Positions 12,671-35,218 of a stretch of DNA of 64,000 nt are shown piece by piece (the stretch's first letter is position 1; each line of letters starts with the position of its first letter). The DNA is from Lentisphaeria bacterium. Lineage in GTDB: Bacteria; Verrucomicrobiota; Lentisphaeria; Victivallales; Victivallaceae. The notes under the pieces are model-generated. The model was given only the letters and a program-made list of their open reading frames with translations, ran no database searches and had not been told where the DNA came from. Made by a program: the position numbers and the translations under genes. The DNA lies in contig JAFVRD010000060.1 in the NCBI GenBank assembly GCA_017504435.1, forward strand, positions 1-64,000, read 5' to 3'.

Positions 12671-12953
12671 CATCCATAGTATATCTGAAACACTCTTTCA
12701 GGGGAAGAATTCCAGTCGAAAGTCAGTCATGTTTTTGATTTACTTTCGACAGAAATATTTTGACCGACCTCACCGCTCCCATTGAAAAAGTAATTTTCTG
12801 CTGCTTCTCCGACTCCGAAATCTACCGTGCGATTTGCAAAAAAATTTGCAATTTTTTTAATTAAAATACGAGAGTGGACGCAAAAAGTCCACTTGCATGG
12901 AGTATATTATGTTTCTGTAATAACTGAAATATTTGTATATGGCTGTTTAACAT

Positions 12954-13092
12954 CATCGGGTGTAGCTCAGCGGTCAGAGCAGCAGAAGAGCGAGGATCGT
13001 CATTGAGAACACATTTGGGTAAGTGTTACAATGCAGGCTTTGCCGTCCTCTGCGCTGCGTGTGGCTGGTTCGACTCCAGTACCCGATGCCCA
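12954..13092 (+). ncRNA. tRNA-like structured RNA with extended anticodon region
   Basis: The ends fold as a tRNA: CATCGGGT (12954-12961) pairs with ACCCGATG (13081-13088); a D-arm GCTC/GAGC (12965-12968, 12977-12980) encloses AGCGGTCA; a T-arm GCTGG-TTCGACT-CCAGT (13064-13080) has the canonical T-loop; CCCA follows at 13089-13092. In place of a 17-nt anticodon arm there are about 80 nt that can form GCAG/CTGC or GCAGA/TCTGC at the base, GAGGA/TCCTC (12992-12996, 13046-13050), CATTG/CAATG with AACAC/GTGTT (13001-13033), and GGC-TTT-GCC (13036-13044). No usual anticodon loop is visible. Possible identities are a tRNA with an insertion, a tRNA-mimicking RNA such as bacterial Y RNA, or a new class; no Ro/TROVE gene is nearby. 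Confidence 0.6.
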
Positions 13093-13291
13093 TTTAACAG
13101 AAGTAGAGGTTAGTGCGTATTCAGGTGTTGTCCTGGTGCGGCTTTCCGGTGACATGATGAAATAGCTCTGCACCTCACGCCCATTCTATTCGGCTCTACT
13201 CGGATAGAACACCGCCTCACCGGTGACGGTGAACGCGGGGAGCCAAGCGGGCTGACTTAAGTGTCAGTCTTGAACCCGCTTGGCTTTTTTT
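13093..13291 (+). ncRNA. structured RNA segment downstream of tRNA-like fold
   Basis: This stretch is probably co-transcribed with the tRNA-like part, because the first terminator lies at its end. It can form CAGG-TGTTGT-CCTG (near 13121-13134), GAGGT with ACCTC (near 13107 and 13172), TCTATTC/GGATAGA (near 13184-13207), and TCACCG-GTGA-CGGTGA (13217-13232) with a GNRA tetraloop. The dense pairing and lack of an open frame suggest a functional RNA of about 340 nt in total. I do not recognise RNase P, tmRNA, 6S or SRP RNA motifs in it. Confidence 0.4.
13241..13291 (+). terminator. strong Rho-independent terminator
   Basis: An 11-bp stem AGCCAAGCGGG/CCCGCTTGGCT (13241-13251, 13275-13285) encloses a nested CTGAC/GTCAG hairpin and is followed by a run of seven T. 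It ends the transcript that carries the tRNA-like RNA, or could act as an attenuator for the small frame that follows. Confidence 0.85.
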
Positions 13292-13364
13292 ATTGATATA
13301 AAAGTTCTTTTACAATATCCCGAAAAGTTCCATTTGCTCCTTCCACGAATAGGGCCATGATCCG

Positions 13365-13568
13365 TTGGATTGCAATGGCAATTTATACTTCGAAACTCCG
13401 GAAGAAGCCATCGCTGATGAGCAAATGCAGAAAGCTCGTGCAATAGGCGGATACAGGACTGAACGCTGTTTTTCCATTCCGGGAGGGTGGGATTATTACG
13501 AAGTTGTTTTTGATGAAAATAATATTGCTGTTTCTCAGAAAATTACTTCTTATTTTGATGGACCGTAA
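13365..13568 (+). CDS. small hypothetical protein
   Basis: A 67-residue frame with protein-like composition, including ERCFSIPGGWDYYEVVFDEN, with an alternation of aromatic and charged residues as in a small beta-rich domain. The only start compatible with the in-frame stop at 13350 is TTG 13365, and no good ribosome binding site precedes it. It may be a genuine small gene or the surviving end of a decayed one. I do not recognise a family. Confidence 0.4.
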   Translation: MDCNGNLYFETPEEAIADEQMQKARAIGGYRTERCFSIPGGWDYYEVVFDENNIAVSQKITSYFDGP

Positions 13569-33457: not shown

Positions 33458-35218
33458 ATGCAGATGAGCCGCACCATACAGGCGACTCCGGTCGCTCCAG
33501 GTATTGCCATCGGCCGGGTGATGTTGCTTCACAGCAGCAGCACCGGGAATGTGCCGGTGACCAGGATAACTGCAGCGCAGACCGGCAAGGAAGTGAAACG
33601 TTTTCACGATGCATTGCAGGTTACCAAAGAACAGATCCATAATATCCGTGAACAGCTTAAACTCCGTTTGAAAGCTGAAGAAGCCGAAATTTTTGATGCT
33701 CATTTGTTGTTGGTCGATGACCGGACAATGATCAGCGAAGTAGAGAAAAATATAACGGTTTCTCTTTTTGGTGCTGAATATGCTGTGCATTTGGCTGTCG
33801 AGAAGTTTTCAGCTGCATTTGCGGCGGTTCAGGATGAGTATTTGCAGGAGCGGGCACTGGATGTCCGTGATGTGGGAGCGCGGATCATCGGCAATATTTC
33901 TGAGAATGCCGCTCAGCTTCCGGAATATGATGAACCGCGGATCATTGCGGCATCTACCCTGACACCGTCCGAAACGGTTGGTTTGGAACGGGAACGGGTG
34001 TTGGGATTTGCTGTTGAAACCGGCAGTACGACCAGTCATACGGCGATATTGGCACGTTCCTTGCAGATACCAGCGGTGGTTGGAGTACCGAAAGAATTGC
34101 TTGATTCCCTGACGATTGCAGATCAGTTGATCGTGGATGGTTTCAGCGGCAAAGTAATTGTCAATCCGGACAGTGCGACATTGGAAGCGTATCATTTGAA
34201 AAGCCGTGAAGCTCAGCGGATTTACAATCAGCTCAGTGCCGATAAGAATCTGCTGCCGGTTACCAGAGACGGTTTCATTGTAGAATTGGCGGCAAATGTG
34301 GATGCTGATGATGATTATTCGGCAGTCCGGCAGGCCGGAGCATATGGTGTGGGGTTATTCAGAACCGAATTTATTTTTATGGATCAAACCCATCTGCCCG
34401 GAGAGGATGAACAGTTTGAAATTTACAAGAAATTATTGGTATCCGCCGGCAATGATCCGGTAACGATCCGCACACTGGATATCGGCGGGGATAAACTTAA
34501 CCGCGGGATCATACGTACCGAGGAGCAGAATCCGTTTTTAGGATTGCGCGGCATCCGTTTGTGTTTGCGTGAAAGACAGGATATTTTCAGAACCCAGTTG
34601 CGGGCATTGATGCGTGCCGGAGTGCATGGACATTTGCAAATAATGATTCCGATGGTCAGTTGTTATGATGAAGTTTTGGAGACAAAAGCGATCATTGAGG
34701 AAATCAAATCTGAACTTGCCGGAGCCGATGTGCCGTTCGCAGATGCGATACCGCTGGGCGTGATGATTGAGACCCCGGCAGCGGCATTGATTGCCGATGT
34801 TCTGGCAAGGGAAGCTGATTTTTTCAGTATCGGAACTAATGATCTTATCCAGTACACGATAGCGGCGGATCGGAGCAATGAAAGGGTCAATCATTTGTAT
34901 CGTCCAGGTCATCCGGCAGTATTGCGGTCGATCAGGGAGACGGTGAATGCGGCAAAGCATCATAATATTCCGGTTACAGTGTGCGGTCAGACTGCAGAAG
35001 ATATCGTGATGACTCCGTTGTTGGTGGGCTTGGGGGTGAATGAATTGAGTATGCCTTCCGGAGCAATTCCGATCGTGCGCCGGACTTTGCGCCAGTTGTA
35101 TATGAATGAATGTGTTGAATTGGTTGAACAGGCATTGCAGTGCTGTTCATCCGCTGATGTGCTGGAATTATCCCGCCGGATGATTCGCCGTTGTGTTCCG
35201 GAATTGGCGGATATGTAA
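33458..35218 (+). CDS. ptsI: PTS enzyme I (phosphoenolpyruvate-protein phosphotransferase)
   Basis: A 586-residue enzyme I that takes phosphate from phosphoenolpyruvate and passes it to HPr. The phosphohistidine is H194 in ETGSTTSHTAILAR; the PEP-binding domain has GVGLFRTEFIFMD, RTLDIGGDKL, NPFLGLRGIRLCL, IPLGVMIETPAAALIAD and FSIGTNDLIQYTIAADR, and the catalytic cysteine is in ITVCGQ-like VTVCGQTAED. The length and all motifs are normal. The start ATG 33458 has AGGA about ten bases upstream. Confidence 0.97.
   Translation: MQMSRTIQATPVAPGIAIGRVMLLHSSSTGNVPVTRITAAQTGKEVKRFHDALQVTKEQIHNIREQLKLRLKAEEAEIFDAHLLLVDDRTMISEVEKNITVSLFGAEYAVHLAVEKFSAAFAAVQDEYLQERALDVRDVGARIIGNISENAAQLPEYDEPRIIAASTLTPSETVGLERERVLGFAVETGSTTSHTAILARSLQIPAVVGVPKELLDSLTIADQLIVDGFSGKVIVNPDSATLEAYHLKSREAQRIYNQLSADKNLLPVTRDGFIVELAANVDADDDYSAVRQAGAYGVGLFRTEFIFMDQTHLPGEDEQFEIYKKLLVSAGNDPVTIRTLDIGGDKLNRGIIRTEEQNPFLGLRGIRLCLRERQDIFRTQLRALMRAGVHGHLQIMIPMVSCYDEVLETKAIIEEIKSELAGADVPFADAIPLGVMIETPAAALIADVLAREADFFSIGTNDLIQYTIAADRSNERVNHLYRPGHPAVLRSIRETVNAAKHHNIPVTVCGQTAEDIVMTPLLVGLGVNELSMPSGAIPIVRRTLRQLYMNECVELVEQALQCCSSADVLELSRRMIRRCVPELADM

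Follow-up and report, generated by a model that had tools for sequence, protein, structure and literature searches.

What kind of RNA keeps the acceptor stem, D-arm and T-arm of a tRNA and carries a branched structure where the anticodon arm should be? The question is raised by a locus in a 64,000-nt stretch of the genome of a Lentisphaeria gut bacterium (hereafter the window). The earlier note on this DNA had described a tRNA-like acceptor, D-arm and T-arm followed by CCA at 13090-13092, with about 80 nt folding into stems of their own in place of the anticodon arm. Every one of these elements could be located in the sequence. The interval between D-arm and T-arm measures 82 nt (12982-13063), the 7-nt anticodon loop is absent, and the helices of the arm covary among homologues. 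The parts of the RNA are as follows.

12954-13092, plus strand: whole tRNA-shaped RNA, 139 nt, with C73 and CCA encoded; homologues in five other genomes
12954-12961, plus strand: 5' strand of the acceptor stem, pairing with 13081-13088 (CATCGGG(T)/(A)CCCGATG, 7-8 bp)
12965-12980, plus strand: D-arm, GCTC-AGCGGTCA-GAGC
12982-12985, plus strand: 5' strand of the anticodon-position stem, GCAG; partner CTGC at 13055-13058
12986-12991, plus strand: internal loop AAGAGC, facing TGCG at 13051-13054; sequence largely conserved
12992-12996, plus strand: second arm stem, GAGGA; partner TCCTC at 13046-13050; covaries
13001-13033, plus strand: long hairpin with conserved loop ATTTGGGTAA; duplex energies compared for own and swapped strands
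13034-13045, plus strand: small hairpin CA-GGC-TTT-GCC-G in the three-way junction; enlarged in genome G009
13055-13058, plus strand: 3' strand of the anticodon-position stem, CTGC; covaries
13064-13080, plus strand: T-arm, GCTGG-TTCGACT-CCAGT
13081-13092, plus strand: 3' strand of the acceptor stem, C73 (13089) and CCA (13090-13092)

The architecture common to the homologues runs from the acceptor through the D-arm, a 4-bp anticodon-position stem, the internal loop AAGAGC/UGCG (probably a kink in the arm) and a 5-bp stem to a three-way junction bearing the long and the small hairpin, and then through a variable loop of 4-5 nt, the T-arm and the acceptor to C73. The loop of the long hairpin reads [U/C]AUGGG(A/U)NAAG in the relatives and AUUUGGGUAA in the window.

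Standard annotation missed the RNA: ARAGORN reported no tRNA gene in the window, and Rfam gave no match there to the canonical tRNA family (RF00005). Around the RNA (12700-13500), Rfam at E<=10 returned weak chance matches only, the nearest being selenocysteine tRNA at 21 bits (cutoff 47) over part of the RNA. This identity was ruled out by the weak match, by C73 in place of G73 and by the 5-nt variable loop. The folding energy was unremarkable for the 142-nt core (z = -0.66) and lower for a 353-nt stretch including the terminator (z = -2.8). Folding energy alone is no evidence for such a core, and comparative evidence was therefore needed.

Conservation and Covariation

A DNA search of 60 related genomes yielded full-length copies in G012, G008 and G032 (75-76% identity) and a partial one in G009. 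Covariance model R1 added the full-length G009 copy and a second G032 copy across the genus, and a copy in G106, which belongs to a different genus, across 388 genomes of the phylum; model R2, run on 78 genomes of the family, found the same seven copies and none further. The window RNA scores 155 bits against R1, a model built partly from the window RNA itself. All seven copies, from six genomes of one Lentisphaeria/Victivallaceae-type family, have the common fold, with strong covariation; their contigs belong to Lentisphaeria/Victivallaceae bins recovered from the rumen of goat, the cecum of roe deer and the feces of horse, and to two Lentisphaerae bins, SIG89 and SIG96.

An alignment of homologues had been proposed in the earlier note as a way to look for compensatory changes, and such changes were found in the acceptor and throughout the arm of the seven copies. 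All 7 acceptor pairs are retained in every copy, with compensatory exchange in the second G032 copy (CGCCGGG/CCCGGCG). The anticodon-position stem occurs as GCAG/CUGC, GUCG/CGGC, GCGG/CCGC, GUGA/UCAC, GAGA/UCUC and GAGG/CCUC, and the second arm stem keeps 34 of 34 pairs, a bulged G in G106 being allowed for. In strand-swap tests on the seven sequences, the true pairing was equalled in 2 of 5040 permutations (identity included) for the anticodon-position stem, again in 2 of 5040 (identity included) for the second arm stem, and in 1 of 5040, that is, by the identity only, for the long hairpin, whose mean duplex energy was -12.0 kcal/mol with its own strands vs -5.4 with swapped strands. Segment boundaries were drawn manually, with knowledge of the structure, and the permutations take no account of relatedness; relatedness, however, improves the pairing of swapped strands and does not impair it.

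CCA is encoded in five of the seven copies (not in G012 and G106). C73 is present in all seven vs none of the 40 tRNAs that ARAGORN found at tRNA loci of the window genome. C73 is otherwise typical of tRNA-His; the 40 tRNAs include no His, Ile(GAU), Ala(UGC) or Thr(UGU) species, probably due to assembly gaps. A nucleotide search of phage records and a pattern search of viral contigs gave no match to the RNA, and no description of it was found in the open-licence literature.

Flanking Sequences

Two further features border the RNA:

12871-12909, plus strand: conserved upstream element containing the hairpin GTGGAC-GCAAAAA-GTCCAC (12874-12892)
~13239-13291, plus strand: strong intrinsic terminator closing a non-conserved trailer

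The transcript had been thought to continue for some 200 structured nt, past a GNRA tetraloop hairpin, to a strong terminator at 13241-13291. The hairpin (GUGA, at 13218-13231) and the terminator (at ~13239-13291) are both present. The proposed extension of the RNA did not hold up: the 150-200 nt after the CCA lack significant similarity in the relatives, and no significant homology was detected for 13093-13240 in the relatives searched. Because it is unconserved there, we regard this stretch as a trailer running to the terminator and not as part of the RNA proper.

The 39-nt upstream element is 89.7% identical (E 1.8e-8) to the sequence separating rtcB from the RNA gene in G012 and 84.6% identical to the same spacer in G008; in G016, 23 of 23 nt match DNA downstream of, and close to, rtcB. 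The window contains a single instance of the element. Its hairpin is common to the rtcB-downstream DNA of G012, G008 and G016. Directly upstream of the window RNA no sigma-70 promoter was found, and there is no sigma-54 site near it; elsewhere in the window, at 34049-34065, lies an exact sigma-54 type sequence, TTGGCACGTTCCTTGCA.

Genomic Context of the Copies

Three of the seven copies, from two genera, sit 14-515 nt downstream of rtcB (G106, G012 and G008). Given genome sizes of 2-3 Mb, chance is a very unlikely explanation for finding three of the seven, from two genera, within about 500 nt of rtcB. Two of these three (G012 and G106) belong to operons with Ro60, RtcR and a sigma-54 promoter, exact sigma-54 sites being found upstream of both; the third contig (G008) is truncated at its beginning. 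In G106 the order is a divergent RtcR gene (PF06956, 236 bits; NF038308, 733 bits, exceeding the cutoff of 650), a Ro60-like protein, a 155-aa ORF and RtcB, and the RNA starts 14 nt past the rtcB stop. In G012, with a divergent RtcR gene at the contig end, the order is Ro60 (vWA_Ro60 39 bits, over cutoff; phmmer 5e-13 to a solved Ro60), tRNA-Ile(UAU), RtcB (PF01139, 358 bits), a degenerate tRNA, the RNA, a WG-repeat protein, two P-loop proteins and a Thg1-like protein. G008 has the RNA after RtcB in the same arrangement, its contig beginning just ahead of the upstream tRNA-Ile. The TROVE Pfam model misses the Ro60 proteins of the relatives, and PF25045 with a protein query was used instead. 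A Ro60 gene lies nearby in G106 and G012 and not in the window genome, G032 or G009; the G008 contig starts too late to tell. A conserved and covarying fold is linked to this operon in two genera.

Other small RNA genes accompany these loci. A tRNA-Ile with a UAU anticodon separates the Ro60 gene from rtcB in G012 (L040:5353-5428) and just ahead of rtcB in G008 (L041:154-229). In G008 a second odd tRNA immediately upstream of the RNA (L041:1868-1952) has normal acceptor, D- and T-arms and, as its anticodon arm, a 10-bp hairpin with a 5-nt loop; the arm has been lost from the same gene in G012. In G009 an exact sigma-54 site occurs ~20 nt upstream of a tRNA-Asn heading an RtcR/RtcB locus (L085:7141-7252); might this be a damage-induced tRNA? 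A conserved leader RNA (L084:5729-5812 and, on the minus strand, L040:7805-7887), situated after the sigma-54 promoter and ahead of the Ro60 gene, has a hairpin flanked by AAYGC and GUC within an AUGGAG/CUCCAU stem and is a candidate for a separate Y RNA. In G024 a tRNA-like element missed by ARAGORN lies directly downstream of rtcB (L087:668-743).

The window copy is an orphan, with the RNA standing alone. The earlier note had proposed looking for a Ro60 homologue elsewhere in the genome, and none was detected. In the window genome, which is 95.5% complete, neither Ro60 nor RtcB nor RtcR is detectable, an absence that is likely, not certainly, real, and the same three are undetected in G032, which is 97% complete and carries two copies. 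The RNA can therefore exist apart from these genes. Conversely, G021 and G011 have Ro60 and RtcB, yet no convincing R1 match. Since the upstream element resembles the relatives' rtcB-RNA spacer, the sequence suggests that the window locus is a remnant of a repair operon, presumably the 3' end of one that was lost; tblastn detected no repair-gene remnants in the window. Alternatively, the window RNA may act with other partners. Near the second RNA copy of G032 (C21) lies a Mrr-type type IV restriction gene (L043:414-1328).

Comparison With Known RNAs

A bacterial Y RNA or another tRNA mimic had been suggested at the outset. The idea of a tRNA mimic stood, and a bacterial Y RNA is the best lead because relatives encode the RNA in Ro60/RtcB/RtcR operons; identity with YrlA (RF02553) was not supported: the Rfam model gave no match, the RNA is a circular permutant of YrlA in its anatomy, and no Ro60 is detectable in the window genome. 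The RF02553 covariance model gave no match at E<=10 in 12700-13500 and none above cutoff in 78 family genomes, with a positive control in Rhizobium at 92-95 bits.

The anatomy of YrlA was taken from the Rfam consensus and a review (PMC8394870). Its consensus order is 5' Ro stem, anticodon-position stem, T-arm, closed acceptor, D-arm, anticodon-position stem and 3' Ro stem. Both RNAs have a tRNA-like D-arm, T-arm and acceptor stem in an identical cyclic order, an anticodon-position stem with an internal loop at the matching place (GUAUG/CUAC in YrlA) that runs into a further stem, and a gene in RtcR/Ro60/RtcB operons (for the window RNA, in its relatives). YrlA, however, is permuted, with its 5' and 3' ends in the Ro60 stem and its acceptor closed by a 3-nt loop, whereas the ends of the window RNA pair as a free acceptor stem with CCA, its arm is closed by a conserved loop and bears an extra small hairpin, and it has no Rfam score and is also present without Ro60. 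The Ro60-binding signature of the YrlA consensus, GAAUGC/UUGUCG, has a loose UGC/GUC counterpart at the corresponding place, in another pairing register. Rhizobium Y RNAs scored 31 bits with a permuted model (R3) vs 29 with the un-permuted R2, mostly from the shared tRNA parts, a difference too small to discriminate. The shared cyclic order is thus a matter of architecture, not of demonstrated descent.

On Rhizobium plasmids YrlA is located between the Ro60 and RtcB genes. Upstream of the Rfam-found YrlA we noted a second Y-RNA-like RNA, itself unreported by Rfam (L147:4552-4697 and L092:4549-4694), and at L148:4546-4697 a Y-RNA-like RNA that is the sole one seen there.

Canonical tRNA (RF00005) shares with the window RNA the acceptor, D-arm, T-arm, variable loop of ~5 nt and CCA, but the window RNA has no anticodon loop and differs in its 7-8 bp acceptor with C1-G72, in C73 and in the branched arm of ~75 nt. 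The operons of the relatives resemble the RtcR-regulated rsr-yrlBA-rtcBA operon of Salmonella in RtcR, sigma-54 promoter, Ro60, RtcB and a tRNA-like RNA. They differ in that the RNA follows rtcB and does not lie between rsr and rtcB, in the insertion, in some relatives, of tRNA genes that are either ordinary or odd, and, in G106, in the lack of rtcA between rsr and the RNA.

Proposed Function

On balance, we favor the view that the RNA is a tRNA-mimicking non-coding RNA of the family's RtcR-controlled Ro60/RtcB repair system, Y-RNA-like with its tRNA parts in un-permuted order, and that it probably helps cells cope with damaged tRNAs. Such an operon responds to tRNA damage (PMC7790460), the tRNA-like domain of YrlA is modified by tRNA enzymes and Ro60 with Y RNA redirects PNPase (PMC8394870), and Ro/TROVE has been described as a repair platform with a tRNA-like partner (PMC7824862). 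In the relatives RtcR would sense tRNA damage and the RNA behind rtcB would be transcribed; its acceptor end may be trimmed in tRNA fashion, its tRNA body would engage tRNA-handling proteins, and its branched arm, lacking the anticodon loop that an anticodon nuclease would cut, could dock Ro60 or another partner. The RNA would then serve as a scaffold or competitor when broken tRNAs are repaired or removed. The reading that assumes least is that the repair system has here a tRNA-shaped partner that cannot be cleaved at the anticodon and possibly docks Ro60 through its arm. A more specific form of this proposal, which we hold only tentatively, is that the RNA is an un-permuted Y RNA with a free acceptor on which CCA is possible and an anticodon arm turned into a dock for Ro60 or a partner, with YrlA as its circular permutant, and that it can also act independently of Ro60/RtcB, as in the window genome.

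The main rival, in our judgment rather unlikely, is a decoy or inhibitor that acts on its own against an anticodon nuclease: a tRNA body lacking a cleavable loop would titrate a tRNA-cutting toxin or phage effector, with no need of Ro60/RtcB, and would travel with defense genes. In its favor are the orphan copies in genomes without repair genes, the surroundings of the G032 copies, with a Mrr-type restriction gene nearby and an ImmA/Xre pair on the same stretch, and the hairpin-armed second tRNA just upstream in G008; the competitor idea is already published for YrlA, whose tRNA-like part, uncut by anticodon nuclease, was proposed as a competitive inhibitor of that nuclease (PMC7790460). However, the conserved three-way junction, apical loop and internal loop exceed what a decoy would need, and no partner nuclease was identified.

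A specialized tRNA charged at its CCA end and used as an amino-acid donor off the ribosome is quite improbable: the encoded C73-CCA of five copies and the intact D- and T-arms would suit it, but CCA is unencoded in G012 and G106 and no aminoacyl-transferase gene was seen nearby. Nor is C73 with U at position -1 known to match any usual bacterial synthetase identity. There is still less to recommend an intron-interrupted tRNA gene or a decaying tRNA pseudogene, suggested by the insert at the anticodon position of a tRNA body and by degenerate neighbors in some relatives (the armless hairpin tRNA of G012). The insert covaries and is conserved across two genera, its removal would leave no U33 anticodon loop (the internal loop being AAGAGC/UGCG), it falls far short of the size of a group I intron, and no intron was found by Rfam. 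A tmRNA or other trans-translation RNA, considered unlikely from the start, can be dismissed despite the tRNA-like body at the RNA end, since neither ARAGORN nor Rfam gave a tmRNA match in the window, the D-arm is that of a normal tRNA, and there is no tag reading frame, no pseudoknot chain and no messenger part flanked by tRNA halves.

A free acceptor end is missing from the tRNA-mimicking Y RNAs known so far (YrlA). If the RNA is indeed a partner of the Ro60/RtcB repair system, association of a tRNA-shaped RNA with Ro60/RtcB would have been reached in two topologies, and a mimic in natural tRNA order would offer a simple way to ask whether the tRNA shape serves as decoy, scaffold or repair substrate. 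The copies add a structured RNA family that is unseen by Rfam and ARAGORN and whose covariation lends itself to a model.
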